From Symbiodinium natans (lineage: Eukaryota; Sar; Dinophyceae; Suessiales; Symbiodiniaceae), in assembly GCA_905221605.1 (NCBI GenBank), contig CAJNDS010002125.1, forward strand, positions 203,809 to 267,808: a stretch of DNA of 64,000 bases, given 5' to 3'. Positions 610 through 63,645 of this stretch are shown here, one piece after another. The first letter of the stretch is position 1; every line of letters starts with the position of its first letter. A program made the translations under genes and the position numbers. Below the pieces are notes generated by a model. It worked only from the letters and a program-made list of their open reading frames with translations, was not told the origin of the DNA and ran no database searches.

Positions 610-3600
610 CTACCCGTGACTATCAGAAACGGAACAGCTGGCCAGATTCCACTTGCGGAGCCAGTGGGAGTTGATCACGAAGCTTTCCTCGTGTGCGAAG
701 GGCCCGCTCCATTGGATGCGGCAAGCAATAAACTGGCTCCCAGCGAAGTTCGCCACGGGCGAGCAATCTTCTAAGAAGGGGAAGTGGCAGGACTGGAAGT
801 GGCACTGCGTCAGCAAGCCTTAGTTGTCCCAGCACCTCGGGGAAACTTAAGGTTAACCTTTGGAATGATAAGGGGACTCTATTACTTATTACCCCAAAAG
901 GGTTAGTAAAGGTTACACACTACTACCAAAAAGGTTAGTAAAGGTTACATACGCTACTACCCAGAAACAGTCTGCCACCGCGTCCTGGCCGAAGCCCAGG
1001 TTGCAGTACTCAAAACGGCAGGCGCTGGCCACGCAGGCCTGCAGGCCATCTTTGAAGCGGACGTTCACGAAGCGGCTGCTCCTCTATGCTCCCCTTAGAA
1101 CCTTAATGAACATATTAATTATCTTTAATATCCTCTTGGTTTTTATATGAACAAAAAATAGTTCCCAAAAGGGATACAGTCCTTGGGAAGACAATGTCGC
1201 ACACCTTGGTGGCGAACTCGACCTCCCGGAACTCGCAGGGCTTCGCGCAGTGGACGCCCCGCAGCTGAAGCCGCATGCCCTGGAAGGTCAAAGACTCCAG
1301 CAAGTCGCAGTCCTCCAAGCCTTGGTACCCCAAAATTTAGGGCTGGGTTTAGGGTTTAGGGTTTAGGGATTACGGTTTAGGGTTTAGGGTTTTTTTTGCC
1401 ACCCGACTAGCCACAGCAATAGGGTTTAGGGTTTAGGGTTTGGGGTTTAGGGTTTCGACTTTAGGGTTTAGGGTTATAATATAGTAAGGGCACCTTTTTT
1501 GGGGGGTTGGTGAATTTATAAGGGAACCTTGAAGCAACAAACAAAAGGGTAGAGGGTACCACTGGGCTACCAAGAAGCAGAGGACGATCTTCCCCTCGCA
1601 CTCGATTCTGGGAAGTGTGCGCAGCTTTGCTCTTCTCAGGCTGATCGTGGAGCCGCCTTTCGTCATGCGAAGGACCCGGCCATGGAAGTAGGTACGCTCG
1701 CACACCACCCGGTCGAAGGGCAGCGTGATGTCTCCGTGCAAGTCTGTGTGGTTGAAGATTGCGCTGATGAACTGCCTGTCCTTCCTCGCTTGGCTTTGTT
1801 TCTCAAAGCCCTAAGGAAGCGCACGCTCCTACTTAAGACGCTCTTAACCCTAAACCCCTAAGAGACGAGATATATATATATATATATACACACATATATA
1901 TATATGTACATCAACAGGCTGAGCAAGTTCCGACCCGGTGTCCTATCTTCGTCACTGCCCTTGAACGTGCAGCTGTCCAGCTCAGAGTCGGCCACAAACA
2001 ACCTGGCTTGGGATGTCTCCCCTTTATCCTAACTGTCCTTGATAGGGAAACCCTAAAACCCAAAAACCCTAAAACCCTAAAACCCAAAAATCCTAAACCC
2101 TAAACCCTAAACCCTAAGTTGGTACAAGCCAAAAACCTGGGTCCCAGAGCCCAGCGCGACAAAACAAATGGAGGGCAACCGTAAGCCTGATTCCTGGAGG
2201 TTCGGGGTACTTATAACCCCAAATAGAACTGTACTTATGAGCCCCCTATGTCCCCTAAGTCCTCTAAGTAGGTTATACGCAGACTTATAAGTGGGGTTAG
2301 AAGTACCCAGAAACCTCCAAGAAAAGACTCGGTGAGCTGCTCTTAGAACCACTGAACCCCAAGTCCTATAACAACCGAAGCGCTGAAGGGAGGGGAGGAA
2401 CAAGAAGACCCCAAACCCCAAACCCCAAACCCCAAACCCCAAACCCCAAACCCCAAACCCTAAACCCCAAACCCCAAACCCTAAACCCCAAACCAAAAAC
2501 CCCAAACCCCTAAACCCCTAACCCCAAACCCCAAACCCCAAACCTCAAGCCCCAAGCCCCAAGCCCCAAGCCCCAAACCCTAAACCCTAAACCCCAAACC
2601 CTAAATCCTAAACCCTAAACCCCAAACCCCAAACCCCAAACCCCAAACCCTAAACCCTAAACCCGAGCCACTCTTCGGCGACTCGAAAGTTGCAGTGGAT
2701 GAGCTGCGACTCCTCCACGGAGGCCACCATCGTAAAGACGCCGAACCTGGTGGGAGGGCTTCAGGGTTTAGGGTTTAGGGCTAGGGTTTAGGGTTTAGGG
2801 TTTAGGGTTTAGGGTTTAGGGCTTAGGGTTTAGGGTTTAGGGTTTAGGGTTTAGGGTTTAGGGTTTAGGGTTTAGGGTTTAGGGTTTAGGGTTTAGGGTT
2901 TAGGGTTTAGGGTTTAGGGTTTAGGGTTTGGGGCTATATACAGGCTACGTCCGGACAGTAGTGAAGTTCTGCACGTCCATTTAAATTTCAAAAAAACATT
3001 CCAAGGCCCAGAAACTGCACATTCTCCATTCTTGAGCTGGTCACCTTCACCTCGCCAGCTGTCACTGTGAAAGACAAGTCGCAGTCGAACAGGTCGCACC
3101 TGTGAATCTCCTTGGCACCATGGTTTGGGGGGGTACCATGTAAGAATGATCATTTTTGTTCCTGAGTAGCTTAGGTATTCATAAAAGCGTAAAATGATTT
3201 TCAACAATGGCCGAGTCTCGATTTTCTTGACGTGGGAGTTCTCCAAGCGCAAGTTGCTGAGCCGGAGTCCGGCCAAGCTGATGCGCTCCATGATCATCTC
3301 TGACCGACACAGGCCAAGCTGGCTGAGGTCAAGGACCTCTGCCGGCGGAACTTCCTTGGTACCCCAGGAACCTTTCTATAATAAGGGCACCCTTTTCTGG
3401 TTAATTTCAAGGGAATCTTAAACCAATAAATAAAAGGGAAAAGGGCACCCTTTTTATAATAAGGGCACCCTTTTTTGGCTAATTTTCTAAGGGGGAACCC
3501 AAAAAAAGAGAGGGAAAAGGGCACCGCTGGGCTACCCAGCTTCACACACCAGCGACGCAAGGAGCTCTTTCGTGAGCTGCATCTTGGAGCGGCCAGGCAG

Positions 3601-4098
3601 GAGGTAGTAGTCCACGTACCTATACTCCCCTTAGAACCTTAATAAAAATAATACTGTTATATCCTCTTGGGTTTTGTATAAACAGAAATAAACAAATAAT
3701 TCCCAAGGGGTATATAGATACCGGCAGGCTTCAACGCGTGCCTCCAGGTCCAGGTCCTGTATGCGCTTCGCCATCTCCATCTGGGGCAAGTTGCCCCCCT
3801 GGCGCACGCACTCCACCAGCAAGGAGAAAGCCTTGGCATTGGTGGGGCCCTCCAGCACATAGCGGCCTTGCGAGTCCTGCTCACCACGTCGAAAGGTGTC
3901 ATCGTCCTGCCGTTCCTCCACCATTGCCCGCAGCACTGGGGAGACCTCATCTGTTAAGGACTTTCGTGGAACTTGTTCGCTGTACGTCTGACCACGAACC
4001 ACGAAGGTCACCATGTCGACCTCTGCCTCATGCTTGGCCCGGGGAGATGGAGAGAGCCGAGACTCGGGACGAAAGCTTGGCACACTCATCTGGCTCAT
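610..4098 (-). CDS. BTB/T1-like protein with pentapeptide-like repeat body, ten exons
   Basis: The gene model joins 4098-3722, 3619-3544, 3354-3220, 3110-3016, 2746-2663, 2002-1954, 1780-1579, 1320-1182, 1081-969 and 818-610. It is 1,479 nt and 492 aa, in frame throughout, ending in TAG. Residues about 30-130 (VTFVVRGQTYSEQVP, then YVLEGPTNAKAFSLLVECVR) look like a BTB/T1-type oligomerisation fold. The rest is a long run of short loops with aromatic or leucine residues every five or so positions (SELDSCTFKG, LEDCDLLESLTF, SQFIACRIQW), as in pentapeptide-repeat beta-helices. KCTD9 has a comparable order of domains, so an adaptor role is possible but inferred. All nine introns end in AG; donors are GT (4), GA (4) and GC (1). 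The start is the first of two close in-frame ATGs (4098 and 4089); the frame stays open upstream to 4251. The exon 6/7 junction is the least certain. Confidence 0.72.
819..968 (-). repeat. intron with internal tandem duplication
   Basis: This GT-AG intron of the BTB/pentapeptide gene contains two copies of a roughly 33-base unit (on the plus strand, GGTTAGTAAAGGTTACA followed by a CTACTACC-type tail) at about 900-965. The sequence is otherwise AT-rich and non-coding. Confidence 0.65.
1082..1181 (-). mobile_element. introner-like element, family II, acting as a GA-AG intron
   Basis: About 100 bases with imperfect terminal inverted repeats (plus strand CTATGCTCCCCTTAGAA at one end, TTCCCAAAAGGGATACAG at the other). 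It coincides with an intron of the BTB/pentapeptide gene. Removing it restores the frame and places GA at the donor and AG at the acceptor. Relatives lie at 3620-3721, 28683-28777 and 33649-33738. Confidence 0.75.
1321..1578 (-). mobile_element. introner-like element, family III, with nested TTTAGGG array
   Basis: This GC-AG intron has family III ends (CTTGGTACCCCA at the low end, GGGCTACCAAGAAGC at the high end). The direct repeat GCTT is present at the intron start and at the downstream exon start. Its interior holds TTTAGGG arrays and a copy of the TTTTTTGCCACCCG motif, as if other repeats had been inserted into the element. Confidence 0.7.
2003..2662 (-). repeat. long composite intron (families I and VI plus CCCCAAA arrays)
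   Basis: A 660-base GT-AG intron. On the plus strand 2008-2050 is a family I end (CTTGGGATGTCTCCCC), 2188-2316 is a family VI element with GGAGGTTC/AACCTCC ends, and 2401-2663 is a mixed CCCCAAA/CCCTAAA array. The open frame through the array encodes only repeat residues (GFGVWGL) and is not a gene. Confidence 0.65.
2762..2930. repeat. interstitial TTTAGGG array
   Basis: A nearly uninterrupted run of TTTAGGG units inside the intron 2747-3015 of the BTB/pentapeptide gene. It is flanked by normal coding exons on both sides, so it is not a telomere. Confidence 0.97.
3355..3543 (-). mobile_element. introner-like element, family III, acting as a GA-AG intron
   Basis: 189 bases with terminal inverted repeats CTTGGTACCCCAG and CTGGGTAGCCCAG (each read inward from its own end) and internal AAGGGCACCCTTTT blocks. 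The donor is GA and the acceptor AG. GAAG is repeated at the intron start and at the downstream exon start. Intergenic relatives are at 19783-19875 and 42972-43130. Confidence 0.78.
3620..3721 (-). mobile_element. introner-like element, family II, acting as a GT-AG intron
   Basis: 102 bases that are entirely one inverted-repeat element: CTATACTCCCCTTAGAA at the low end, TTCCCAAGGGGTATATAG at the high end. Direct repeat GTA. It separates two in-frame exons, so element boundaries and intron boundaries coincide. Confidence 0.8.
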
Positions 4099-4309
4099 CT
4101 GCACTCCATGGCCCGGGCGGGCGCGAAACAAAACGGCGGTCGGAGGTCTGTATGGCTTCAAGATGATATGTATGATGCATTGCACGGCTCCTGCTATAAG
4201 ACTCCTGAGGTGCGAGATGGAATCACCACATTTGCTCATTGTAATGTGCATGTTGCAACGCCTGCGAGCAGAAAAAGAAGCCCAAAGCAGTGCGGTGGAT
4301 GGGTACGGA

Positions 4310-4416
4310 TTGGGATGTTCCCCTTATTCTCACAGTCCTGAAAAGGGATTATAGTACCCCCGCCCCCGTATTATACTCCCTATTAAGGACTGCTAGTATG
4401 ACGGGGAACATCCCAA
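4310..4416. mobile_element. family I inverted-repeat element
   Basis: Near-perfect hairpin element: TTGGGATGTTCCCC with TCACAGTCCTGAAAAGGGAT on the left and the complementary TATTAAGGACTGCTAGTA with GGGGAACATCCCAA on the right. This is one of more than a dozen copies in the window. It has no coding capacity, so it is MITE-like. Confidence 0.85.
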
Positions 4417-4559
4417 GGTACGGAAACAAAAGGCTCGCAAGCGATTACGATCTATCATTATTTTGAGATTTGTTAAGAAATTTTTGCGGCAATATAGGGC
4501 TTATTTTCTATCATGTTTTGGGGGTTCTTAAGCAAAAACATATACATAAACAACTAAAT

Positions 4560-4632
4560 AAATACATATACACACACACACACACGCACACATATATATA
4601 TATATATACACATATATATATATATATATTTA
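4560..4632. repeat. CA/TA microsatellite
   Basis: Alternating purine-pyrimidine run, ACACAC followed by ATATAT, with small interruptions. It lies just after a family IV element end. Confidence 0.9.
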
Positions 4633-5062
4633 TATTTATCTTCTGCAATTTTACGGTAATCCAGGGATTATTTTCTCTCATTTTAGAGTTGCGACCCCTG
4701 ATCAGGCAAGGCTCTCCAAGAGCCCAATCAAGCCTCAGCTGCCGATAAACTCCCTGCTTGGAGTCCCCACACAAGGAACGGGTTTGGGGTTTGGGGTTTA
4801 GGGTTTCTGCAAGCACTCTCTGCAGCAGCAGCGTTTAGGGTTTAGGGTTTAGGGTTGTTGCCAGGCATGTCCCATGGCCCTGCAGACCTTGCCGTGGCCG
4901 TGGCTCACCAGAGCACTTCGTGACACAGAGCGCAACTACGCATGTGCCGCACGCCTGGGTTCACAACAGCCGCCACATCCCTCCGGTGCCCATCCCTAAA
5001 CCCTAAACCCGAAAACCCAAAACCCTAAACCCTAAACCCTGACCCTAAACCCTAAACATCTC

Positions 5063-16055: not shown

Positions 16056-16059
16056 CTTG

Positions 16060-16182: not shown

Positions 16183-16228
16183 TCAAGAGACCCCAACAAC
16201 CCTGAATTAAGGAAAGTTCCTGACATCA

Positions 16229-19700: not shown

Positions 19701-22700
19701 TAGCAATCTTCTGGCAACTTCGTTTCAGGTCCGTAACAGCAACCAGCCGTTTCATCACCCGAAGAAGCCCAGAAACCGCATTGTAGTGAGGGCACCCTTT
19801 CTGGGGTTGGCGACTCTATGAGGGAAACTTGAACCAACAAAAAAGGGAAAAGGGTAGCACTGGGCTGCAAGCTTCAGGAAGATCCCTCAATGCACCTTAT
19901 GTAGTCCCTACATACCTAAGTAGCCCCTACATCACCCCTAAGGTCCCTTCTCGGGGTCCCTCCTTGACTTCCTTGACACCGACACCTCTTTTGCGAGGCG
20001 AAGGGGCTCCGCGGCTCCGGCAAACGCCTCCTGCGCCTCCTCCTCGGAGTACTCCTGGACATCCCAACCATCGCGCGCCGTGGCTTGGGGTCGCGCTTAC
20101 GCGAGCAGGTGCCGAATAACGATAAAGCCCTGTAAGCCCTGTAAACCCCATCAATCAATCCTGTAAACCCTACAAACCCGAAAAAACAAAAAACAACTTA
20201 AAACTTAAAACGACTTCAAGCTTGGGCCGGGGTCAGATTTGGTACCGTAAGTCAGCCCCTGTGGAAGCAGAGCCTCTTAAGAGGTAAAAAAACATGACCC
20301 ATTCTCATATCGTCCCCTATACACCTAAGCAGCCCGTAAAGAACCCCCGTAGAACCCCTAAGAACCCCTGACAACACCTTCAGCCCTGAACCCTAACTCC
20401 TAAACCCTAAGCCCTTAACCCTAAACCCCTTGAGCCTCGTTCTTGAGAAGCACCTCTACTGACGCCAGGAAGGCTTCCGCCGAGGCCTCGTCCTGGCAAT
20501 GCATGAGGACCGTTCGACTTCGCGGTCCCCTTTCTTGTAGAGAAAGTATACATGCAAGCAAACGAGTACAGAAAAAAAGGGATTTTGGGTCCATCTATCT
20601 ATCCTCTGCGTGTTTCGATGTACTGCAGCAATGCAATTACATATAGTAGGAATAGCTAACAAAACATGATTCTTACCTACAAATTGCTTAAGAACCCCCC
20701 CCCCCCTTAAAAAAAAAAAAAAAAAAAAAACAACAGCAACAAAAAACACATCCTTATAAGGGCTATATGGGGATGATCATTTTAAAACATTTTTCTGGGG
20801 ATCTCAGGCAAATAGTAGTTACGATTTGAAAAAAGCAGGCCTCCATCGCCACCTTCAGCGCCTCATGGAGCCACTGGAAGAGCCTCGCTGAGCACTGACA
20901 GGTAGCTTACCCGTAGTTTGCCCGAAAGGTTTAGGGTTTAGGGTTTAGGGTTTAGGGTTTAGGGTTTAGGGTTTAGGGTTTAGGGTTTAGGGTTTAGGGT
21001 TTAGGGTTTAGGGTTAGCCAGCAAAGGGCCCGAGGCAGCCTTATAGCTACCTCTCCAAGGAGCCCCTTAAATCCTCAGCCGGGCGGCTCTTCCTCCACCT
21101 GCTGGACCTTGGCCGCCTTGGTCTCCTTGGAGCCCTCCTGATCAACCCTAAACCCTAAATCCTAAACCCTAAACCCGAAACCCTAAACCCTAGCCCTAAA
21201 CCCTAAACCCTAAACCCTAAACCCTAAACCCTAAACCCTAAACCCTAAAGCGCACTGCCCCCCAGATACCTGTGGGGGCACACCCCACTGACACCACCTG
21301 AAACCGACACCCCACTACCGAGGCAAAAAGACAAAACACCCAGATGCTCCGGCACAGGACACGAAATTGATGCACCGAACCAACACAGTAATGGCTTTCG
21401 TTTGGGGGGGGGGGGGACAATGAACTCCTCCGCAGGATCCTGCACGCCTTGAGTCCGGCAGTGTGCCAGTAGCAGAGTTGCAGGGTCGCTCTACAGTTCT
21501 GGGGGGGCCCTTTCGGCGTCTCGCGTGGTGTCTCTTCCTGCAAAACGCATGTCTGGCCCCACGAAGAGAAGCCCCCCAGTTGCGGGGGTGCCTTGGGCTC
21601 GCGGCCCGTCCGCACTTCGAATTGCCCCCGGCCGGCGGCGAAGGCCTTCGGCCAGGGCTGTGATGACTTGGAGGGGTTCCCGGGCTTCTTTTCATCCTAC
21701 TGGGGTTTGCTATCCTTCCTACGTGTACCACTTATGCCGGGAGGCTGTGAGACGCACGCTTCCTACGTGTACCAATTATGCCAGGAGGCTGTGAGATCGC
21801 ATGGTTGGGGGGTGCCCAGTGTTTCCAGACCGTTTGCTGGAGGTACTGGCCGGACCGATCCCGGGTGAACACGGGCATCGGGTCAAGGGCAGTCTTAGCA
21901 CCCCGTAAACTCTAACAGCTCCATGCCCTAGACCCTGCTTGGAGGTTCATGGGTACATGTAAGTGGGGTTACAGAGAACCATAACTATAGCTACTCTGCT
22001 TATAAGCCTACTTGCAAGTACCCATGAGCTTCCAGGCAATCACCTACAAACCAAAGTCCGAAGCCGCCCAACGAGCTCCGGAAGCCTCGGGGATCTCATC
22101 TTCCGGGAGGTGCAGGCAAAGCCAAACCCGCAGCCGCTCCTGGGCGGAGTGCAGGAGTCCAGGTGTTTGGGAACCCTGAGCCCTAAACCCTAAACCCTAA
22201 ACCCTAAACCCTAAACCCTAAACCCTAAACCCCAAACCCCAAACCATCAACCTTAAACCCCACAGGTCGCTCTCGCTGCAGGGCTATACCCCAGCAAATC
22301 GGCCACTGAAAGCCCTAAACCCTTTTTGAACCCAGACTCAATCCTGTCCAGCTGGGAAGTCGGTCGCACTCCGTGCCGTGAACCCTAAACCCCAAACCCT
22401 ACTAGGTAACCCTATGTTGCATCAGAGATGCTCTGGGTCCAAAAAGGCCCCCCCTTTTGTTACCCCACCAAGGCTCAGCCAGTGACTCCCCAGTCGCACT
22501 CTCTTCCGGCTCCTTCTGGGGCCGTGGTGAGAACGAAGCCAGTTTGGGGTTTGTGGTTTAGGGAAGAGTTTAGGGTTTTGGGGTTTGGGGTTTCGGGTTT
22601 AGGTTTACGGATTAGGTTGAAGAAACCAGAATAAGAATATGAAAAACTTCTCACTATAGTCATAATGTACGTTGGACATCGTACATGGTTAACTCGTGAA

Positions 22701-25235
22701 TCGCGAGAAGTACTGGCTACCTTTGTGATTGCGTCGTAACTACTGCTAGATTAACCCGAAATCCTAAACCCCAAAACTCTAAACCCTAAACTCTAAGAAG
22801 TCATAACATCACTGCAACCGCGGTCCTCCCGTGCAACGGCGAGTGCCTTCATGGCTGCATCCGAGGCAAAGCCCCAGCTCCTATCGACTTTCCATGTGTA
22901 ACGGGGTCCAGGGATTAGGGTTTAGTGAGGGTGTTCGGGCACTGTTGGGTTTAGAGGATTTAGGGGCTTTTGGGCAGTTTTGGCGTGTAGAGGGTTCAGG
23001 GTTTAGGGCCTCTACGCTATCATTTGTGGTTGCTCGTTGTATTGAGTTAAGAAGGATTGGCGTGTCCAGGATTCCAGGTAGTGCTTTTTCAGAAGAGCTG
23101 AGATGCGTTCCCAACATCCCGGTTCTTCGTGGGGAGCTTGGGGATTCGGTGCCCTTTATGAGCCCTAAAAGGTTGGCGTTCTGTTTAGGGTTTAGGGTTT
23201 AGGGTTTATATAGGAAACACACACACACAAGTAATTCCCGGAGTCTCTACACAGAACTCTTAAGTGAAAAAGGCCACAAGACGCCGCAAGAAAGCCTCCA
23301 CAAGCCCACCAACAACCCAGAGGGCCCCTAAACCCTAAACCCTAAACCCTAAACCCTAAACCCTAAACCCTAAACCCTAAACCCTAAACCCTAAACCCTA
23401 AACCCTAAACCCTAAACCCTAAACCCTAAACCCTAAACCCTAAACCCTAAACCCTAAACCCTAACCCCTAAACCCTAAACCCTAACCCTAAACCCTAAAC
23501 CCTAAACCCTAAACCCTAAACCCTAAACCCGCCTAAACCCGCCTAAACCCTTAAACCCTAAACTAAACCCTAAACCCTAAACGCTAAACCCTAAACCCTA
23601 AACCCTAAACCCTAAACCCTAAACTGAAGGTGATGCGTCCCTTCTGAGCCAGGCGGCTGCACCATGGCGAGTGCTGCGGCCTCCATGTCCTCAGCAGCCC
23701 AAGGCGCCGCGCAAAAAAGATAAGTCTTAGGGTTTAGGGTTGAGGGTTTAGGGGTCAGGGTTTAGGGTTAGCCACCCAACTTTCAATTTCTCTTGGGAGG
23801 TTCCCCTTTATCCTAACAAGGTACTTTAATCCCTATTAAGGACTGCTGGCTGCTAGTATAAGGAGGAACATCCCAAATTTTCTCTCAGGTCCGAAGCCCT
23901 CATTTCAAACATGAACTGGGCCTGTCTGGGTAGGCTTCAACTAAAAAGTGGTCATCATGGCAGTTCATGACGCCTTTCTATGGGCATTAAACCCTCCGAA
24001 TGCTATCCCTAAATATAATGCTCTTAAACCCAATAAGGGGAAAGAAGGGAACATGCAAAATATTCAAATGGCCTGCCTAGCTCTTGTGAAGCGTGCACTG
24101 AGGTCGGCGCCAGCACACTGAAAGATGGACACTTCTCGCCAAGACTCGTGCTTGAGGAGAGACATATCCCAACTCAAAGCATCACTACGGCGTTTCCTAA
24201 CTCTCTCTCTCTCTCTTACAGGCGGCCCGAAACCCTAAACCCTTAGCCCTAAACCCTGAACCCTAACCCTGAGTCCAGAAACCCTTCCCTCCACCTCTTC
24301 CGAAGGCAAGAGTCTGTCAGCTCCTCGAGTTCGCCTCTGCCTCAGCAAATCTCGCTCCACCAGATTCCGAAGTCCAAGTCGCTGAGGAGTAGACAACATC
24401 TCCACCCTAACCTGAAGCCCTATACAGGGGCCTCAAACATTAGAATAGGCTTTTTTTCTTGGGGGGGGGGGGGGGGGGGGGGGGCTATTATAGTACAGTT
24501 ATATAGGGGCCATAAGGGGAATGCTCTGGGTAATTACCTCTATAGTACACTTACCGTGGCGGTTTCGGAGCCTGGGGTTCGTCTCACCTGGTCCCCTAGC
24601 CCCTGCCCCCCCCCCCCCCCTGTTTTGCACCCCTCCCCCTACTTAGGGCTTAGGGTTTAGCTCAGGTTTCGGGTTTAAAAGGCTGCCGGATCAAAAAGAA
24701 TAAGAAAGGATCCAAAAAAAACAAACAGCAGAGGGTTCAGGGTTCAGGGTTCAGGGTTTAGGGCCTAGGGTTTAGGATTTTTTCTTTTGATCCCTTTTTG
24801 TTCTGCTTTTGATCCTTTATTCTTAGTTTTGTGATCCCTATGTTTCGGGTTTAGGGTTTAGGGTTTGGGGTTTGTGGGTCTTTTTTCCCTGCTGCACAGC
24901 TGGGGCAAATCCGCATCGCAGGGCGAGTCTGACGGGGTTCGTTTGGGGTTTGGGGGTTTGGGGTTTGGGGTTTAGGGTTTGGGGTTGAGGGTATAGGGTT
25001 TGGGGTTTAGGGTTTAGGGTTTAGGAACCCCTGAACCCTAAACCCCTCACGCCGGGGCGCGCGAGGCCTCGGCGAAGGCTTCGCCGAGGCCCAGGGCCTT
25101 GGCCAGAACCTGGCGCATCTTCCTGGCCCAGGGAGGGTTTATGGTTTAGGGTTTAGGATTCAGGGTTAGGGTTTAGGGTTTAGGGTTTAGGGTTTAGGGT
25201 TTAGGGTTTAGGGTTTAGGGTTTAGGGTTTAGGGT

Positions 25236-28639: not shown

Positions 28640-29010
28640 CCTTAACAGTCACGCAGATTTTGCCACGGTCAGCACCTCACCCCTATACTCCCCTTAGAAC
28701 CTTAATAAAAACAAAATGTTCAATATCCTCTTGGGGTTTATATACACAAAACACTAATTCCCAAGGGGGGATATAGACCCTTGGCCCTAAAGAAGCGGGC
28801 GTCCTGAATAAAAAGAGCACAGGAGCCGGCAGCCCGTCCGTCGGCAGCGCCCTGTCCTGCTCATGGGCTTTAGGGTGTTGAGCAGTTCGGGTTTCGGGTT
28901 TAGGGTTTCGGCAGCAATGCAGCCCTCGCAGAAAGAAGTCCATGCACCTAAGGACAAGGTCTGCCAAGGAGGCGGTCCGCGGCAACACCCCCCCTGGTCA
29001 AGGGCACCTC
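28640..29010 (-). CDS. unassigned exon group split by a family II introner
   Basis: Minus-strand islands: about 29000-28918 (LPRTASLADLVLRCMDFFLR), 28864-28779 (QDRALPTDGLPAPVL) and 28681-28640 (GEVLTVAKSA). The last two are separated by a complete family II element at 28683-28777, which has GT at its donor side and AG at its acceptor side, as in the BTB gene. The product is not recognised, and start and stop were not identified. Confidence 0.35.
28683..28777. mobile_element. introner-like element, family II
   Basis: CTATACTCCCCTTAGAACC at one end, TTCCCAAGGGGGGATATAG at the other, and an internal AATATCCTCTTGGGGTTTAT block identical in order to the intronic copy at 3620-3721. Confidence 0.82.
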
Positions 29011-32958: not shown

Positions 32959-33648
32959 AGGCAGGGGTGAAGTACCCCTAAGTTAAGGCGGTTTACGGCT
33001 TCGTGTTTTGGGCCTAGATTCATGCGGACTGAAAAAGCCTGCGGAGAGACAAGCCACGTGGAAATGAATTAAGAGTTTAAGGGCTTTGGGTTCAGGGTTC
33101 AGGGTTCGGGGTTTTACGGTTTTCGGGGTTTAGGGATGTATTGCCATCCCCTGGAACATTTGTAAGAAAGATATGCTTTGATCTTGGCGAAGCAACATCG
33201 CTCTGTGGATTTGAACGCCTCATCACGCTCAGAAGAAAGCAGCTTCTACTTTTGAGGGCGCCCTAAACCCTAAACTCTAAACCCCTTGCGCAGCCAGATT
33301 GATTTCATCAAGGTTCGGGAAGTACTTTGCTGGACCCGTGACCATGCCAGTTCGTCGACATATTGACATGCCGGTAGCGTGCTCCTGTGTATGTAAAAAG
33401 ATAGAGCTTCAATCATCATGTGTACACGCAAAAGGAGACCCAATATACACGCAGCAATGTGTACACGGAACAGTATGTACACTCACCAGTAGCATATAAA
33501 CCCTCCGTCATATCCCCCCAAGAACCATTAAAATGTGATGCTTGATTTCCCCGGTGTATGCACAAAGTCTCTCTTTGCATGCATACACATATCATCTATG
33601 TGTCTATGTAATGATTTCTTTACATCTGCGAACTTACTTTCTGTTTCC

Positions 33649-33738
33649 TTACTCCCCCTAGAACCTCAATAAAAACAACATGTTTAATATTCCCTTGGCC
33701 TGTATATAACTAAACCAACAATTCCTAAGGGAGCTATA
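33649..33738. mobile_element. family II element
   Basis: ACTCCCCCTAGAACCTCAAT, AATATTCCCTTGGCCTGTAT and ATTCCTAAGGGAGCTATAG match the intronic family II copies. Here no exon flanks it. Confidence 0.75.
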
Positions 33739-33847
33739 GTACACTAGGGGTGTACCATAATAAGGGGTCCCTAAGAAAGTCCCCCAAAGAGTAGGATTTC
33801 CCTTATAATGAGATGGACCCCAAGTGACCCGAGAAGGTACCCCTCAT

Positions 33848-41032: not shown

Positions 41033-42294
41033 TCACATGCGGTAGACAGCCTTCAGGGCCTCGCTTCGGCGAAAGGCGCCTCGGAAAAGGCCTGCTGCAG
41101 CGGCACAGTCGCCTCTCTCGGCGAGGAGCTGCGCCTCCTGGTACATCTGGAAGGCCTCCTTGTCCTCCGGCGCCGTGCAGATCTCTGGGTCGCGGCGATA
41201 GAGGACATCCGTGCGGATGATGTACTTCTCTGCCGCTGGGACACCCTCATGCATCAGGCGATGGTAGAACACCAGCATCCTCCCCGGTTTGGGAGCCACC
41301 TCTGCCAGGATGAGATCTGTCTCACCGGTGAGCCGACCGGCATCGTCCTTGCGAAGCTCGCGCTTCATCTGCTCGTCCGCGTAGAGGCGCGTGTGCCCGC
41401 CCCATGGGGAAGCATTGAGGAAGAGCACGCAGCTGTAAAAGGTACGTCGGTTGAAGTCCACCACGGTGGTCCCGTCCGTGTGGGGGCTGAAGTGGCCACC
41501 ATCCAGGTACCGCGACAGCAGCAGCTTCGGGTTCATTGCATACGGATACCATGTGCCCTCGATGTCGACTTCAAAGCGCGGATCTTCTGGGCCAAGCTCC
41601 ACCGTGGGCTGAACGTGCGAACCCACCCGCCGCCAGATTCGATCTGCCAGGGCCTCCTGGGAGACCTCCACTGTGTGCGCGTTGCGGAAGGCGATGCGCG
41701 GCCGCGCTGGGTCCTCCTCCCAGAAGGTCCAGAGGCCCTCAGCCCGGCTCACCAGAGCAGCGCATTCGGCGGCGCTGAGGACATTGTCCAGGACAAAGGC
41801 ATCACAGCCCGGGACGTTCCACCGCACCACCGGGCCCACAAAACCGAGGTCAAGCTCTGCCGGAAGCTCCTCTGCTGAACTTGGAACCCTAGGAAAAACG
41901 ATGATTTTAGCTGTTTTCTTGAGGAATACAGAACCCAAAGACTCAAAACATATTCCCAAGAATCCCTACAAGGCTCGAAGATTTCGGCCGAGACTTCCTC
42001 CTTGTCAACGACGTTGGAGATTGGCTTCGCTTCAGCCTCGCAAGCCTGCACAATTCCATGGTCGTCCTCGTCGTCCTCGTCGTCCTGCTGGTCCAGAGGA
42101 CTGTCCGAAGATTGTTCATCTCCGTCATGCCTAGTACTTCCCAGCTGGTAGTTCTCAACCGACACAGAATCCTTCGCCGGCACAGAGCTGATTAGCAGAC
42201 CCCACACTGGGTCGAGATCCGGATCGGCTTTGGCCATCTCCTCTGCCGCGGCACGGCCATCATGTGAGCCCTCCTCAGCCAGAGAAGCTGCCAT
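41033..42294 (-). CDS. 2-oxoglutarate/Fe(II)-dependent oxygenase (prolyl 4-hydroxylase-like)
   Basis: Two exons, 42294-about 41966 and 41888-41033, encode about 394 aa from ATG to a stop at 41033. The N-terminal exon is acidic (DDEDDEDD). The second exon carries a P4H-type double-stranded beta-helix: iron ligands H246 and D248 in SPHTDGTT, distal H323 in LMHEGVP, and 2-oxoglutarate-binding R335 in YIIRTDVLYRR. The C-terminal 40 residues resemble a single TPR-like helix pair (EAQLLAERGDCAAAAGLFRG). Such enzymes hydroxylate proteins or small molecules; the substrate is unknown. TAGGG occurs at both ends of the roughly 77-base intron, so the exact cut is ambiguous (it reads GG-AG if AG is kept as acceptor; a GC donor a few bases earlier also keeps frame). 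The gene starts 21 bases downstream of the preceding stop. Confidence 0.82.
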
Positions 42295-42315: not shown

Positions 42316-45300
42316 TTATGCAGAAGGCTCACAGCTCCCAAAATCTACGAAGATGCACTTGCATGATTCTGTCATAAGGGTGTGATGAAGGCGAATCTTT
42401 GCGTCGAACAGCTCGATCTTGAGCCGTAGACATTTGTTGAGGGTTGATGAGGGTTTCATTCTAGGGCTACGGGCAGTTTCCTTTAGGGCTCCGGGCTGGC
42501 GGCTTGAGGTTTCTTGAAACGTGCGCTGAGACTTGTGCGGACTGCCACGGTTGCCGCAGCCAAGCAGCTCGTGCAGGAGTTGGGTGGGCATGCGCTGGTA
42601 GGACTTGACCACCTCAGGTGAGCAGCAAAAAGTTTCCGGTTCTTCGGGCAAAGGCCCCATTGGGGTTCCTACTGTAGGGAATGGAAAGAAGGAACGGTAA
42701 GAACCCCAACAAAAAGGGGCGGTTCTCTCAATCTGACGGCCCGTTGAGCTGTTTTCTGGGCCCTGGGCTTCAACCCCCCTCTTTTTGCATCCGGGACTCT
42801 GGGCAGATTGCCGGGGCTCCGACCCCTCACAACCCGAAACCCTAAACCCCCAAAGCCCCAAACCCTCCCGCCGCCATTTCACTTCTGCTGGCCAGCAGCC
42901 GTCCCATCCTTCTTCTGCTCCGCCGGCTTGTCCTTCGACCGTCAAACCAGGAGTCCCACTTCCGAACCATGATATGGATAAGGGCACCCTTTTTGGGACG
43001 TTATGATAAGGGTACCCTTTTGGGATCTTGTGACAAGGGTACCCTTTTTGGGTTCGGCTACTTTACAAAAGGAACCTTGCACCAACATAAAGGGAGCACA
43101 AGATGGCACCACAGGGACTACCCAGCTTCAGGAAGATCCCTCAAACCTAAGGGACATTGGCCGTCTGGCCTTCTTCGGCCGACAGACTCGCCCGGGCGGG
43201 GATTGGGGAACCTCCACAACCCATCCCCCTGCTTTACGTCCCGGATCCCCCCTCCCTCTAAACCCTGAATCCCTGCATGATGTTTTACGAAAACAGGGGA
43301 CCCCCTAACAATAGACCCCAAATTGGCAGCATTCCCTTCATAGTTGGACCCCAATAAGGTACCCCTAATTTTGGAACCCCCCCCCCCCCCCTGCCCATAC
43401 CGACATGCACGGAAAGCTTCGGCAGGTGCTCGTGTCGTCATAATCACCCCACTTAAAAAAGCACCCGTAGAGCTATCAGCACATAGGGTCTAGATCGATA
43501 TAACTCCTTGTAACCTTACTTAGGGCAGGTAGAACTCCACTTAGATAGGTACGATCATCTGTTCTAACCTTGTTGAGGATACTTGGAACCCCACCTGTCT
43601 ATTGCAAAGGCCGGTGACCTCTTTATCTCTTACCCCTGTACCTTAATGTAGCCCCTTGATACCCTAATAAGAAAGCGAATATATGCCAAAAAAACGAAAC
43701 ACTACTTGACGAGACCACCAACCCATGTAAGTAAGCCTAAACCCTAGACCCTAGACCCTAGACCCTAAACCCTAAAGCCTAAACGACCTAATCACTCCTC
43801 AACCTCCAAGTGCTTCCAAGGCGGACCTTGTACTCCGTGCCGGCGCCACCCCTCTTCCCCATGGCATGCCCCAAGGAGCAGCACCCCCTGAATTGAGGAA
43901 CCTCAAGCTGCCCTAAACCCTGATCCCCAAACCTTATAACCCTAAACCCTAAACAACCCAGAACCCTAAAACTTATAAACCACGGGGGGGTTCCTGGTGA
44001 ACTAAGGAGGGAGGTCTCTTTGCGAAGAATTGCCTGAAGCCCGGGGTGCCGCCTTTGTTGAAGGACAACACGTGTCGCAGTGCGAAGGCTTAGATCTCAA
44101 CAGGCTGTTTGGGACCCTAAACCCTAAACCCTAAACCCCAAAAACACCAAACCCTTCTGGGTTGGCTAATCACTTGCTGCCAACCGCGGTGGCAGGGTGC
44201 CACGAATGGATGGGAGCATACACAACTTGGGCACATGTGCGGCGGCTTCAAGCCGTGTCTCCGTTTGACTTTTTTTGTATATAGTACATAGGATCCTTGA
44301 TTACACCCCCAAAAGGGACATATGTAATATTCCAACAAAGCCAACCTGGGTACAATACTAGGCAGAACTTGGCCCTAGCAAGGCTTGAGCAAAAGCGGCC
44401 ATGGACGGCGCACGCCCATCGTGGTGCTGCCAGTATGTAAGGCCCAGGAAACAGGGGTGGAAGCGGCTTCGGGGTGCTGTCACAAGCCACAAGGCTTGCT
44501 GTGTTGTTGGCTTGTGGGTTTAGGGTTTAGGGTTTAGGGTGGCTCGGTTCCATTGGAGGCAGTTCAGGGCTCTTGGGGAAAACTTTGAGGGCCCGGCTGT
44601 CCCACACTTTTTGGTCGAACGTGTGTCGCTCTCTGTACTGCGGTTCACTGGAAACTGGGCCTAGAGCGCACGCTGTGAGCCTGGCATGGCTTGGCACTGA
44701 AGGTTGTAAAGTCTTCAGGGCTTACATATGGGGGTTTCCGAAAGTAGGGGTACCTGATTAGGGTCCTGATTATGAGGGAACCCTAACCCCCATATGACAA
44801 GGACTTCGAGTTTAGAGGATGGTTTCAAGGCCGTGCATACCACGCGCCGTAGGCTGCATATCACTCTCAGAAGCCATATAGCGCCGTGACATTCGTCAAC
44901 TAGCACGTGACCTGCACGGTATCAGGGAGCCACGCAATCCCCTCACACTGCAAACTGCACTGCAACCAGGAAAACCCAGAAAGAAGAGGAGCTTGGAACT
45001 CATTTGTCTGTGCGTGCGTGCGTGCGTGTGTGCGTGTGAGAGAGAGAGAGAGATTGTGAGTGTTTTTGGGCTGGGGGAAGGAACGGAGGGGTGGGACCCA
45101 AACTGTCAGGATGGTAGAGGCTATTACGGCGAGATTCGTGCACCTTCTTAAACGGCCACATGGACCGCTCTCTACATGTAACGGTACTTTTGTGGGGGCA
45201 CCTTCCCACCCCAAACATCAGAGACCTTCGAAAAATCCCAGTATCCGAGTATCCCTAAAACCTAAACCCTAAACCTGAGTCCCCCGGCCTCCGGATCAAT

Positions 45301-49400: not shown

Positions 49401-50099
49401 TGAGACAAAGAGGGTTTAGGGTTTAGGGTTTAGGTCTTCTAAAACTGTAAAATAGGCTCCCCGGCATGCCGACCGCGGGCGACGGGCAGTTCTCTAACAC
49501 AAATGGGGCATCATTAATTCTAGTATGGTAACCGACCATTTAATCCGCCAGCAGCCCACCCCCGAAATTTCCGTTCGTATTTGGCACTCGCAGACCACCT
49601 CATGGCAGGAAAACCATTTCCGGAAGTTGAGGTAAACGCTTCAAAAGAGCTCACTCCCGGAGATGCGATAGGTAGCCCTAGGTAGCCCGCATACAATATT
49701 CTCTTCTCTTCAAGCGGTTCAAATGTCTAAGAAATATTCAACATACCCCTTGAGCATACCCGTCAAGGTTTGGTAAGGATCCTTCCTTATATTCACCCTT
49801 TTATAGGCTAAGGGGTATGGGTTTGGGGTATGTTGAATCATTCAAAATGGGTAAGCTCCATGCTTGGGGTTTCGGGTCCTCTGGCGGCTCGTAGTTTCCG
49901 AAGCCCACAATGCGCTGGGACAGTAGCCGGTACCTGGGTGTTGGAGATTCAGGGGTTTAAGGCTTTCCCTACACCCTACACCCTACACCGCCCTAACCCT
50001 AAACCCTAAACCCTGGTTGTCAGGTTCAGGCTTGCTTAGGGCTGTCTGGGGTAGGGCTTCTTGTGTGTACGGCTGACATTACTTCTCCAATGGCCAAGG

Positions 50100-50190
50100 A
50101 ACAAAAAGGTGAATGCTGACTACACCAACAGAATAAGGTCAAAAAGGAAATCCGACAAAGTTAAGTTCAGCTATTGGCTAAGTAATTGAC
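50100..50190. mobile_element. family VII element (Cdh1-intron type), intergenic copy
   Basis: CAAAGTTAAGTTCAGCTATTGG followed by CTAAGTAATTGACATGC closely parallels the end of the Cdh1 intron at 62905-62945 (AGTTCAACTATTGGC, CTAAGTAAGGTGCATGC). Confidence 0.6.
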
Positions 50191-50282: not shown

Positions 50283-50322
50283 GACGTTCCCCCTTCTACT
50301 AACAGAACGGGCAACATCCCAA
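50283..50322. mobile_element. family I element, solo remnant
   Basis: GACGTTCCCCCTTCTACTAA joined almost directly to CGGGCAACATCCCAA; the middle is deleted. Confidence 0.65.
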
Positions 50323-50340
50323 ATCCCTTCAAAAACAGAC

Positions 50341-50518: not shown

Positions 50519-50520
50519 AG

Positions 50521-55920: not shown

Positions 55921-55924
55921 CCCC

Positions 55925-58900: not shown

Positions 58901-60700
58901 AAACCGAGCAGATCTCGAAGGCAGCATACACTAGCGCTCGGTAGACTCTTCCCGACCGCAATCCAAGCAGAATTGCAGCAGCATATGGGCACATTCCAGC
59001 CAAGCAGTTCTTACGCTCTTACACGCCCCTTGCAGCAGTCGCTAGGTAGACCCGCCTTTTAACCTAGGACTGCTGAGGCTAGACCCTAAACCCTAAACCC
59101 TAAACCCTAAACCCTAAACCTCAGATCCGAGGATCTCAAACTCGACCTCCCCGCGCACGGCAACGACGACCTTGCCTTGGGCCTCAGGTCCTGGGCTCGG
59201 AATCGAACCCCCTTTGAGGCCGGTAATTCAGGGTTTGGGGCTTGGGGATGTGTAGGGTTTGGGCTTTTGTTCAGGTTTTAGGGCTTGGGGATGTTTAGGG
59301 TGTAGGGTTATTTAGGGTTTAGGACTTGGGGATGTGTAGGGTTTCGGGTTATTTAGGGTTTAGGGCTTGGGGATCCTTACTCTTATTCGCCTGAAAAACC
59401 CATAAATACCGCCTGTCAGCGTCCCTCCTTTCGTCCCTTGCGCAAACCTCATGCAAACCTTAAACCCTAAAACTCCTTGAACCCTGGCAGTCCGAGAAAC
59501 CCCAGGAGTGGAGGCCGTACTCGTTCCTCCTTAGGCTTTTTGGGTTTACGGTTTGGGATGGGTTTGGGGTTTAGGGGTTCTCATGATTGGAATTGGCGCC
59601 GTGGGGGACCGGAACGCAGAGCCGCTTCTCCCTAAACCCTAAAAGCCCTACAAACCCTACAAACCCTACAAACCCTATAAAACCCTATGAAACCCTATGA
59701 AACCCGATAAAACCCTACAAAACCCCCCCAACAAAAACCCCAAAAAACTTACACCCGAAGAGGCCGGGCGTCTGGCTGTAGTGGGCGGGCGCCTCGCAGA
59801 GCACGCCCACTTCGGACTTGCACCGCAGCCTCAGCAGCCGCTCCGACCAGTCGGCTGCCACGCAGCCAAGGGGCTCCTCTGGTCACTATATCAACCCCAT
59901 CAACCCTATGATTCAACCTTACAAACCCTGTAAACCCTATAAACCCTACAAACCCTATAGACCCTAGAAAACCTATGAACCCTATAGATCCTATAAACCC
60001 TATGAACCCTTTAGATCCTATAAACCCCATGAACCCTATCCTGGCCATTGACCTCCAGGAAGTCAGCAGTGCCCACCGCCACGACCGTGGGCGCGTGATC
60101 GGCGGTGGCCTCCTCGAAGCCCATGGCGGAGGAGCTCCGCTGCGCCCTAAGTGGGCCCCCACCCCCCTTTTTGGACACGTGTCGACACCTGCTTTTGAGC
60201 CAGCTCTTCCAGGCACCCACATACATCTAGGTGATTTCGGCTTCTTACTCTATGGGTTAGGATTAAAAGGTTTAGGGTTTAGGGCTTATTTGGTGTAGCT
60301 GATGCAGAGGCTCTCTGGCTGGAGGCTGACTTCTTTTTCTCTCACTTTCCTCTTCGCCCAATGGTCCAAAGCCTCGCCTCTGGCAGCGGCGCTCACACCT
60401 TCCACCCCGCGGAGCCTCACACGCGCAGGGAGGGGCCCGGGAAGCTTTTCTGGGAGCCTTTGGACTCAGGCCATTTTGCAAGTGCCCTCCCGAGCAAACA
60501 GCAAAAACCTCCAAACTCACACAAACCCAAGCCTCAACCCAGCGAGCGGAACACCGCCCCAGAAGTAGTACCCTAAACCCTAAGCCCCAAGAAACCCCGC
60601 GGCCAGGTGGCGGAAGGCCACCTTTGTGGAGGTCAGGCATGCGATGAGCACGACCAAGGCGGCCGATAGGCCCTCAGTGAAAGGTGGCCCACTTGGAGGT
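55925..60700 (-). CDS. membrane-anchored PA-domain protein, exon cluster
   Basis: Minus-strand exon islands, in order: about 60690-60597 (GLSAALVVLIACL, a hydrophobic helix suited to a signal anchor), 60420-60300 (GEALDHWAKRKVREKEV), 60150-60040 (ADHAPTVVAVGTADFLEV), 59878-59750 (LGCVAADWSERLLRLRCK), 59195-59118 (GKVVVAVRGEVEFE), 58570-58495 (TLARRAEDSGAVGIVIIDNE), 58110-58040 (EDEWETDFEMTLDVL), 57410-57380 (TLAPDIRSSEMVLQ), 57190-57090 (PAVPAVLVPKTARSRLRDG), 56800-56710, 56300-56232 (IERNLASNEEKLLQL) and 55985-55925 (FMRLRGVEVDRT). The GKVVVAVRG, AVGIVIIDNE and IP-type AVLVPK segments in this order are the core of a protease-associated (PA) domain, a lid or binding module in proteases, sorting receptors and E3 ligases. 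The 59118/58570 join works with a GA donor. No catalytic partner domain was recognised; other junctions are approximate. Confidence 0.5.
56338..56434. mobile_element. family I element in the PA-domain gene
   Basis: GATGTTCTTTCTAATACTAA, CAATCCTTAGTGGGGATTGT on the left; CCTATCAAGGACCGTTAGGA, GCGGGGAACATCCCAA on the right. Confidence 0.82.
57205..57360. repeat. TTTAGGGG array
   Basis: About eighteen copies of the 8-mer TTTAGGGG, the opposite strand of the CCCCTAAA type at 40368-40515. Confidence 0.95.
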
Positions 60701-60757
60701 GGATTGGGGACAACTTTAGGGTTTAGGGTTTAGGGTTTCGGGTTTAGGGTTTAGGGT

Positions 60758-60856
60758 TGGGATGTTCCCCCCTGAAGCTAACAGTCCTTGATAGGGGTTA
60801 GGAGAGGGCGTACTATCATCCCTAGTAAGGACTGCAAGTCTAAGGGGAACATCCAA
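60758..60856. mobile_element. family I element between the PA and Cdh1 genes
   Basis: TTGGGATGTTCCCCCCTGAA, GCTAACAGTCCTTGATAGGG on the left; CTAGTAAGGACTGCAAGTCT, AAGGGGAACATCCAA on the right. TTTAGGG units abut its left end. Confidence 0.85.
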
Positions 60857-61193
60857 TTTTAGGGTAACTAGGGTGCGTAAAAGCACAAGTTGGCTTCATC
60901 GCTCTGTCTCGAGTGGGTTGGGGTTTGGGGTCAGATAGGCAAGGTCATTATGATTATACACAATTTGCTGTAACCATAGCATGTTATGACCTCACGTAGA
61001 CCCCGCAAGGGCTATGAACCTCCGAGTAGTGTGTAGGAGTGGAGCCTCCTTTCTTGCCACCCGCCAAGCAGACCAGCCACAGTGTAATTAGGGTAACGCT
61101 TGGGGAAGATCTTCCGCGATGGGCTGTACAAGCACATGCAGCGGTGGCCAGAACGGGCTTGAGCGAATTGAGTCTCATAAGCTGCGGTAGTGG
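60857..61193. other. intergenic spacer 3' of Cdh1
   Basis: About 340 bases between the Cdh1 stop codon and the family I element at the 5' side of the PA-domain gene. It contains the motif CTTGCCACCCGCCAAGCAG at about 61053-61071 and otherwise nothing recognisable. Confidence 0.5.
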
Positions 61194-63645
61194 TCATCGG
61201 ATTGTGCGGCCGAGGGGAAGCGAGAAGGATAGACTTGATCCCGACCTCGATTTTGTACTCGGAAACACATTCCAAAAGCGAAGCGTCTCGTCTCCTGCAC
61301 CAGTGACCACGGTCTGACCGTCAGGCGAGATGGCGAGATACAGGACCCTGTATGTGTGGCCTGTGAGGGTCGCGACCTTGGTCATGGAAGGATACTTCCA
61401 CAAGATGATCTGGTTCAGGGAGTAGCCGTGCGTGCTCACGATCTCGTTGAGATTCTTGGACCAAACGAGGTTGCAAACCTGGGAGCCGGTGTCGATGCAG
61501 GACAGGGGCATGTTGTTCACTGTGTTCCAGAAACGGATGCACCTGTCTGCCGTGCCACCCCCTGAAGCCAGCAGCCCATGCTGGTGTGGGGACCAAGCAA
61601 TGGCTTTGACGGCTGCCTGATGGCGGTTGAACTTCAGAACCGGCTCCGTGGATTTCAGAGACCAAACCTAGGATGGCTTAAAACGCTTTGAAAAACACAC
61701 CTGAATAGGATCCTCTTTTGCCAAATAAGGGAAAATAGAAAATGTCACAAGGGCCGAACTAGAAACACACAGCTTGTTGTCATTCCCGCCCGATGCCAGC
61801 TGCTGCTCGTCGAAGGACCACTTCAGGCCACAGACCTCCTGTTATAGGGTTTAGGGTTAGGGTTTAGAGTTTAGGGATAGGGTTCTTAAGGGAGGGGGTT
61901 CAAGGGGGGCATGTTTCTCAAGGTTCCCTAATACTCCCCACTCTCAAGGCTCCCTAAGTTTCTCTAAGCTTCCCTTTCAGGTTTTCTAGGTACCTACCCC
62001 CTTGAACCCCCCCTCCCTAAACCCTTTTTGCAACGAGGGCTCTCTCACTCCCTAAACCCTAAACCCTAAACCCTAAACCCTAAACCCTAAACCCTAAACC
62101 CTATTCTCCTGCCGATGGCCGTGAAGCTTTGACATGAAGGGCGCTGGCTGCCGGACATCCCTGTGAAGGATGTGGTGATCTCCTCGGATGAGCCCCCTTA
62201 GAAACCCTCTGAAAATAAGATTGCTCAATTTCAATATGATAGTCCTCTTAAGTTAAACCCAATACGGTGAAACATTCTTCAATATAGTCCTCTGAAACCC
62301 ACAAAAGTCAAATGAAAAATGAAGAAGAAATGTCCCAAAGTGAGGGCCTGCGCCGAGTCTCTGCTCCCGGTGGACAAGACGAAGCCGTTCCAGGCCATGG
62401 TGCCGACCCTTCCCAAATGCCCGCTCATGGTCCGCATCTTGCGGCACTGCGTGGAGTCCCATATTTGGACCTCACCTCGGATGGCCCCTATGAAAAACCC
62501 GATAAGACGAATATATTCCTCAATAAGAGTCCTCTTTAAACCCCAAAATAAGGGGAAGATTTTAAACACGTCCCTGAAAAACCTGCCGAGCCACCTTTGT
62601 TGGTTCCAACCGCCAAGTGCGCGCCTCTGTGGGTCTGCTTGATAAAACACATCTGGGTTTAGGGTTTAGGGTTTAGGGTTTAGGGTTTTAGGGCTTAGGG
62701 TTTTAGGGTTTAGGGTGCGCGCCTCTTTGGGTCCACGCAACCGAGGTCACGGTGTCGTCGGGCCCCAGGTCACAGAGCTTGGTCACCCGACTCGTGCCTT
62801 ACTTCCCCAAGAACGGTTTAGGGTTTAGCGTTCAGGGTTTAGGGTTTAGGGTTCAGGGTTCAGGGTGGTTGAACGTTATTGTTCCTACTAAATAAGGAAA
62901 CCCCAAAAGTTGAAAGTTCAACTATTGGCTAAGTAAGGTGCATGCGCTCCAGAGGTAGACGCAGTTGCTCAGGCCCACAGAGAGCACGTTGGCAGAAGAC
63001 CAGTCCACGAGGTTTAGGTAGAAGTCGTCCTGAAGCTGCGGGGCGTCTAACCTTAGTTGCTGAGTTCATAAGACAAAGAAAAGTTCACACTTTCAGTTTT
63101 AGAGGGGATGATAGTACCCCCAAAAAGTGCAAAGTGTGCTCACTTCAGCTACTAAGTAACACCTTGAAGGGCACCTTGGCAATCTTTCTGGGCGCCTTCC
63201 GAGGAGTACTCAGCAAGCGGCTGCTCTGAAATGAAACCGGCGACAGGGAGAAGGCATCCTCCGGGCTGGCCTGTGCGCAGCTCCTGTACTTGAAGAGGCT
63301 CTTGCTGTCCGGAGACCTGAAGGGCTTCTCTTCCTTCTCAGAGCCCGCGTGAATTCCCAAGAGCTCACTTCGGAGAAGCTGTGCGTAGACAGAGTTGCCC
63401 TCGTCACGGGGCTCGGGAGGTCTCGAGCTTTCTGACAGGAGCGTGAGCCCAGATTCCAGGTCGGAAGCCGCCCTGCTCGGGATGAAGCGGTCGCTACATT
63501 GCGCTCCCTCGTGCCAATGTTGTGACCCCTGCCCCTGCTCGGAATTTTCCGATGCCCAGGCTTCCCGCACCGGCGATCGCGGCCCGTAGTCATAGGCTTT
63601 GCATGAGGCTGCTTCATCCATTTGACGCACTAGGAGTAGAAGCAA
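61194..63645 (-). CDS. CDH1/FZR1: APC/C activator Cdh1 (Fizzy-related), eight exons
   Basis: Exons 63645-63161, 63051-62942, 62797-62723, 62624-62595, 62475-62362, 62182-62109, 61838-61767 and 61667-61194 join in frame to 1,434 nt (477 aa; 469 if the second ATG at 63621 is used). All WD40-adaptor hallmarks are present: C-box DRFIPSR at residues 52-58, [22 protein letters not shown] and [10 protein letters not shown] before the propeller, then seven WD repeats including [75 protein letters not shown] and [13 protein letters not shown]. The protein ends in the Ile-Arg tail (GRTIR) that docks on APC3. Cdh1 recruits D-box and KEN-box substrates to the anaphase-promoting complex in late mitosis and G1. 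All seven introns end in AG; donors are GT (3), GC (2) and GA (2). One exon is only 30 nt. Confidence 0.96.
61668..61766 (-). mobile_element. Cdh1 intron 7, family VIII introner-like
   Basis: 99 bases, GT-AG, with GTTT repeated at the intron start and the downstream exon start. The plus-strand sequence CTAGGATGGCTTAAAACGC ... AGGATCCTCTTTTGCC ... AAATAAGGGAAAAT parallels intron 62476-62594. Confidence 0.7.
61839..62108 (-). repeat. Cdh1 intron 6, GA-AG, with TTTAGGG units
   Basis: 270 bases with TTTAGGG/CCCTAAA units near both ends in opposite orientations (61845-61870 and 62050-62105) and a CCTTGAACCCCCCCTCCCT/AGGGAGGGGGTTCAAGG inverted pair inside. CAGGAG is present at both junctions. Confidence 0.75.
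62183..62361 (-). mobile_element. Cdh1 intron 5, family VIII, GA-AG
   Basis: Plus strand CTCGGATGAGCCCCCTTAG ... TAGTCCTCTTAAGTTAAACC ... ATAGTCCTCTGAAACCC. GAG is repeated at both junctions. Related in order of blocks to 62476-62594. Confidence 0.72.
62476..62594 (-). mobile_element. Cdh1 intron 4, family VIII, GT-AG
   Basis: 119 bases: CTCGGATGGCCCCTATGAAA ... AGAGTCCTCTTTAAACCCC ... AAAATAAGGGGAAGAT. GTG is repeated at both junctions. The terminal CTCGGATGGCCCC is shared with the intergenic sequence at 47995. Confidence 0.74.
62625..62722 (-). repeat. Cdh1 intron 3: telomere-repeat intron in a 12-base direct repeat
   Basis: 98 bases, GC-AG. On the minus strand the left junction reads AGAGGCGCGCACCC and the right junction AGAGGCGCGCACTT, so AGAGGCGCGCAC is duplicated exactly. 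The interior is mostly CCCTAAA/CCCTAAAA units. Confidence 0.85.
62798..62941 (-). mobile_element. Cdh1 intron 2, family VII, GC-AG
   Basis: 144 bases. The minus strand begins GCAC-CTTACTTAGCC and ends GGGAAGTAAG-GCAC: terminal inverted repeats CTTACTT/AAGTAAG flanked by the direct repeat GCAC. The half near the acceptor side has been filled with CCCTAAA/CCCTGAA units. Confidence 0.8.
63052..63160 (-). mobile_element. Cdh1 intron 1, family VII, GT-AG
   Basis: 109 bases. The minus strand begins GTTA-CTTAGTAGCTGAAGTG and ends GAACTCAGCAACTAAG-GTTA: terminal inverted repeats of about 13 bases flanked by a 4-base direct repeat. Confidence 0.82.

Follow-up and report, generated by a model that had tools for sequence, protein, structure and literature searches.

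The introners of Symbiodinium microadriaticum carry 4-bp target-site duplications (TSDs) and inverted ends, bring the 3' splice site within the element and derive the 5' splice site from the TSD (available text of PMC9860276). Roy et al. 2023, as represented in the available text of PMC11453091, report many introner families of recent activity in dinoflagellates, while in the introner elements of Amoebophrya the intron ends bear inverted repeats 8-20 nt long and direct repeats 3-5 nt long (available text of PMC7789003). The introners of Symbiodinium natans, a free-living species (available text of PMC8045281), agree with those of S. microadriaticum in TSD length, inverted ends and the source of both splice sites; they differ in belonging to another species and in the common use of GC and GA donors (10/17 introns), and the comparison is one of architecture (available text of PMC9860276). 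As this architecture is already published for S. microadriaticum, the S. natans introners are not a new kind. Their many families resemble the dinoflagellate introners of Roy et al. 2023, compared here through the summary in PMC11453091, and their inverted and direct repeats at intron ends resemble those of Amoebophrya. In Amoebophrya, by contrast, GT-AG and any clear motif are both missing from more than 60% of introns (available text of PMC7789003), whereas 17/17 S. natans introns fit G[TCA]...AG|G, the rule that was also used in placing their boundaries.

The window analyzed here is a 64-kb stretch (C1813:203809-267808) of a 759-Mb, 2543-contig assembly of S. natans, and the scope is this one assembly. 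Protein matches from window genes reach 81% in S. pilosum and 100% in S. natans, which rejects Amoebophrya as the source organism, and an Rfam scan of the whole 64-kb window returns 0 families. Family copies in the window are located by profile searches; tandem repeats are masked before self-BLAST, as telomere repeats swamp the unmasked comparison. Three genes (FZR1, gene A and a 2OG-oxygenase gene), with 17 introns in total, are worked out by setting intron boundaries through the reading frame and the above rule.

The FZR1 gene (about 61190-63650, minus strand) includes seven introns, and its spliced protein equals the database FZR1 of S. natans at 469/469 residues; human FZR1 aligns collinearly with it. 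Each of these introns (7/7, all on the minus strand) shows an insertion-type repeat of 4 nt or more. Intron 1 (63052..63160; GT-AG) is a family VIII element (63052-63156) plus the 4-bp target GTTA, and intron 2 (62798..62941; GC-AG) is a family VII element (62798-62937), with a telomere array inside, plus the target GCAC. Introns 4 (62476..62594; target GTGG/GTGA; GT-AG) and 5 (62183..62361; target GAGA; GA-AG) have the ends CTCGG...CCGAG, and intron 7 (61668..61766; target GTTT; GT-AG) has CTAG ends. Intron 3 (62625..62722; GC-AG) holds a telomere array (62655-62716) and a 19-bp target duplication with 1 mismatch, and intron 6 (61839..62108; GA-AG) has the repeat CAG|GAG and, at either end, telomere arrays in inverted orientation.

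A second FZR1 of the same genome (L101, C1895:538021-539415) is an intact single open frame across the whole protein, 95% identical, in which introns 1-7 are all empty. The alignment to the spliced gene is gapless over spliced positions 532-1670; the seven junctions, at spliced positions 711 to 1186, all lie within it, and at each the target is present once, with some bases substituted. This copy confirms the FZR1 splice boundaries, including those of the telomere-array introns, and removal of the intron restores the coding sequence exactly. Since the homology extends past both coding ends, L101 is probably a retrocopy of spliced mRNA, and as such it shows splicing and not, by itself, the pre-insertion state; exact searches of L101 reveal no spliced-leader remnant.

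Gene A (about 600-4100, minus strand) has nine introns, placed with the database protein P0231, and the short contigs behind this protein are probably transcripts. In the genome P0231 is matched in ten pieces, which all lie in order at the gene A locus, and a search of the S. natans genome with P0231 finds no second gene A copy. Families II and III recur within this one gene: introns 1 (3620..3721; target GTAT/GTAC; GT-AG) and 8 (1082..1181; target AGGA; GA-AG) are family II, whereas introns 2 (3355..3543; target GAAG; GA-AG) and 7 (1321..1578; target GCTT; GC-AG) are family III, the latter with telomere arrays inside. Intron 3 (3111..3219; target GAGA; GA-AG) starts with CTCGG, and intron 6 (1785..1942; GA-AG) has the repeat AG|GA. 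The three exceptions to a longer junction repeat are intron 4 (2747..3015; GT-AG), with a telomere array at 2763-2929 and a repeat of only 3 nt, the composite intron 5 (2003..2671), with telomere-like arrays, a family I fragment (2008-2048) and a repeat of 2 nt, and intron 9 (819..968), with a repeat of 1 nt. One intron of the 2OG-oxygenase gene (41870..41976; GA-AG) has the repeat GAGC; it and all gene A introns are on the minus strand.

Across the three genes, 14/17 introns show a direct repeat of 4 nt or more across the junction, a length that is independent of boundary sliding, compared with 5.2% of random donor/acceptor pairs and 37% of such pairs if both sides are made to carry AG|G. Donors are GT in 7/17 introns, GC in 3/17 and GA in 7/17. 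Scored end against end, only three introns (FZR1 introns 1 and 6, gene A intron 7) rise above the null's 95% level of 16, and three more reach exactly that value. Single-intron scores are thus weak in several cases, and the inverted ends are best judged from the copies together.

The recurring short repeats described in the earlier note are real, as the copies it named are recovered by profile search of the window. Family I, said to exceed 12 copies, is found at 13 places at E < 1e-4, namely at 4310..4416 (plus strand), where an element is bounded by the perfect 8-bp duplication GGTACGGA, and at 12 further places. All four named copies of family II (profile matches 1077-1188, 3612-3726, 28676-28784 and 33643-33750) and of family III (1321-1579, 3355-3540, 19780-19882 and 42956-43136) are recovered, and these lie in identical orientation, on the minus strand, in 8/8 cases. 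The six named family IV copies are likewise detected, at 20677..20818 (plus strand; exact 4-bp repeat TTAC) and near 16228, 25962, 33843, 34477 and 37952, together with a partial copy at 4485-4536. Family VII has two copies in the window and family VIII one that is recognized. The earlier note listed families V and VI without coordinates, and these names are used here for two four-place sets numbered in this analysis: set V at 24484..24559 (plus strand) and near 17655, 26102 and 53147, and set VI at 43285..43382 (minus strand) and near 25399, 44725 and 52315. Two families are added to its eight, the CTCGG-ended introns and a GGTTC family (2185-2324 and 21935-22038) with the inverted ends CTTGGAGGTTCATGG and, as judged by eye, apparent TA flanks. 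TA flanks are also a feature of Tc1/mariner-type MITEs. LINE-like remains are also observed (12663-13871, minus strand), with an endonuclease domain (Pfam Exo_endo_phos) in 13323-13871; the adjoining frame (12663-13238), which has no Pfam match, is presumably part of the LINE.

Two statements about these families hold in part. The eight families were treated as one group, but they are of different kinds: the duplication is 4 bp long in II, III, VIII and, on fewer copies, IV and VII, and 8 bp long in family I, while the added GGTTC family apparently has TA; the last two are other MITE types. The exact coincidence of families II, III, VII and VIII with introns stands for the copies at 1082 and 3620 (II), 1321 and 3355 (III), 62798 (VII) and 63052 (VIII). 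This demonstration does not cover five minus-strand copies that are not among the 17 worked-out introns: family II at 28683..28776, with the exact 4-bp duplication GGGT, and at 33643..33750, a profile match with damaged ends; family III at 19780..19882 (named at 19783), which is damaged, and at 42956..43136 (named at 42972), a profile match; and family VII at 50078..50186, with the 4-bp repeat TGAC.

The earlier note also called for other copies genome-wide, and these are plentiful, with the same duplications in many of those scored. At first look there are at least 3732 candidates for the VII+VIII query, at least 1662 for II and at least 1139 for III, from each of which the best 40 are scored; the sets for II, III and VIII include the window's own copies. 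Inverted ends of the form 5'-CT...AG-3' occur in families II, III, IV, VII and VIII, and terminal inverted repeats are visible in the aligned ends of the II, III and VIII copies. By chance, about one copy in 256 would have an exact 4-bp duplication. Among the best 40 of 1662 candidates, family II has exact 4-bp duplications in 17/30 copies, a set that includes two identical loci, and one-mismatch duplications in 5/30. Family III, among the best of 1139, has 15/27 exact and 6 with one mismatch (27 of 30 copies have both ends found), and family VIII, among the best of 3732 VII+VIII candidates, has 9/17 exact and 7/17 with one mismatch. Family VII scores only 2/12 exact with poorly placed ends, as its query contains a telomere array by which the ends are misplaced; the family recurs in FZR1 and in an open frame at another locus (L026). 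For families I and IV the sequence was gathered for other families: family IV has 2/10 exact 4-bp duplications, without a control, and in family I an 8-bp repeat with one mismatch or none is seen in 8 of 33 rows, versus a permuted mean of 0.66; some of the family I rows overlap or have poor ends. Some introner copies lie in non-coding telomere-like DNA and duplicate that DNA (L010). A generic scan of the window for 12-bp inverted ends with an adjacent 4-bp repeat gives 18 pairs, and eight controls with displaced flanks range from 3 to 16; as this signature is hardly above chance in 64 kb, the case rests on the family-specific evidence.

The inverted ends, the short duplications, the introns that match elements exactly (II, III, VII, VIII) and the genome copies with the same duplications support the DNA-transposon-like origin proposed in the earlier note. 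Families II, III, VII and VIII are with high confidence introners derived from short non-autonomous MITE-like DNA transposons; family IV and the introns with CTCGG or CTAG ends probably are as well. From this we infer a transposase, a source that provides it and cut-and-paste chemistry. The transposase, acting in trans, would insert the element via a 4-bp staggered cut, with fill-in duplicating 4 bp of target. When an exon is hit, one target copy is spliced out together with the element: the element's terminal AG serves as acceptor, the leading dinucleotide (GT, GC or GA) of the upstream target copy serves as donor, and the resulting mRNA is exactly that of the pre-insertion gene. As the ends are inverted and CT...AG is identical on both strands, an AG is offered in either orientation, and since GC and GA can also act as donors, more targets are usable.

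Ordinary MITEs that jumped into existing introns and intergenic DNA, without making any intron, would account for family I, for the GGTTC family, for the family I fragment within gene A intron 5 and for the II, III and VII copies outside the worked-out introns. Such an origin is nevertheless improbable for the introners, as four introns (FZR1 1 and 2, gene A 2 and 7) consist, to the base, of the element plus one target copy and nothing else. Less probable still are RNA-based introners, whose intron RNA would spread by reverse splicing, a mechanism proposed for fungi: this route does not predict the inverted ends, the 4-bp duplications or the copies in non-coding telomere-like DNA, even though it agrees with copies that are short and coincide with introns. 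The direct repeats might also reflect nothing but the AG|G splice consensus and chance, for which the 37% of random pairs that reach a run of 4 nt or more with a fixed AG|G on either side could be cited; however, most of the repeats extend rightward from the junction (GTTA, GCAC, GAGA, GTTT, GAAG, GCTT, GAGC), with no AG at the left, and copies outside the worked-out introns are flanked by other 4-bp repeats (AGAA, TTTT, ACAA), making this the least credible of the three.

Telomere repeats are a second prominent component of this DNA. The window holds 122 arrays of exact TTTAGGG/CCCTAAA units (58 versus 64 by orientation), or about 2 arrays per kb, in introns and elsewhere, and these units account for 12.0% of its sequence. 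The units constitute 14.2% of 218,676 bases at other loci, which were chosen around introners, and 6154/44,000 bases (14.0%) in 11 tiles that all start from the same preset coordinate of further contigs, with almost none in 3/11. Mammalian interstitial telomeric sequences, which are inserted at breaks and show a target duplication in 6/130 rodent and 4/25 primate cases (available text of PMC2246262), resemble the S. natans arrays only, in occasional target duplication and probably in insertion at breaks; they number 79-250 loci per genome, whereas the S. natans arrays occur at the above density and some are intronic. The short motif TTTTTTGCCACCCGNCNAG is observed at 1392, 11558, 38567, 45726, 58694 and 61050 (6 matches versus 0.39 expected; 0/100 shuffles reach 6), with at least two copies adjoining telomere arrays, and is possibly the end of a retroposon.

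Arrays of at least 21 bp are present in 6/17 introns (FZR1 introns 2, 3 and 6; gene A introns 4, 5 and 7) and make up 62 of 98 bp in FZR1 intron 3 and 94 of 270 bp in FZR1 intron 6. In FZR1 intron 3 (62625-62722) both splice sites fall within the 19-bp duplicated target, which L101 has once, and this is the sole telomere-array intron backed by both a protein and an intronless copy. FZR1 intron 6 and L026:709-816 look like it. The latter is an array with an exact 21-bp duplication, inside one open frame after a family VII introner (target GAGA) is also removed; the frame, predicted and joined by hand, encodes a peptide with no Pfam match. The acceptor AG is in the target for FZR1 introns 3 and 6 and for the candidate in L026, versus in the element for introners. 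Telomere arrays are also observed inside family VII introners, duplicating introner sequence of 21 bp (exact; L025:401-443) and 15 bp (one mismatch; L026:489-578). At 57000-60250 (minus strand) there appears to be a gene whose short exons all have telomere arrays on their flanks; one portion of it looks, by eye, like a protease-associated domain, and the gene is a candidate for further telomere-array introns.

A first test of array flanks was inflated by degenerate repeats and was therefore redone with filters. A flanking direct duplication scores at least 10 at 20/620 arrays with usable flanks, versus a permuted mean of 2.5, and at least 14 at 5/620, versus 0.2. When the duplication is required to touch the array, 5/533 pass, versus 0 in five permutations; FZR1 intron 3 is outside these five, as 19 bp separate one copy from the array. 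We lean slightly towards a second route to introns, in which (TTTAGGG)n arrays are inserted with duplication of about 11-21 bp of target and an AG|G within that target gives both splice sites. The insertion would probably proceed by telomerase or by telomere capture at staggered breaks. Against this route, most arrays have no duplication, FZR1 intron 3 is the single case backed by protein and copy, and part of the pattern could also arise if arrays grew within an intron that was already there.

The literature searched, including the available text of PMC11453091, PMC11782384, PMC11508785, PMC7023079 and PMC7789003, has no earlier description of telomere-array intron birth, and introns built on inserted telomere repeats may be new. 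If the route is true, chromosome-end sequence would be both among the commonest dispersed repeats of this genome and a source of introns, and telomere-array introns, if confirmed, would link break repair by telomere addition to the birth of introns. FZR1, a worked-out S. natans gene in which every intron has an insertion-type repeat, adds to the evidence that the introns of this lineage are largely insertion-born.
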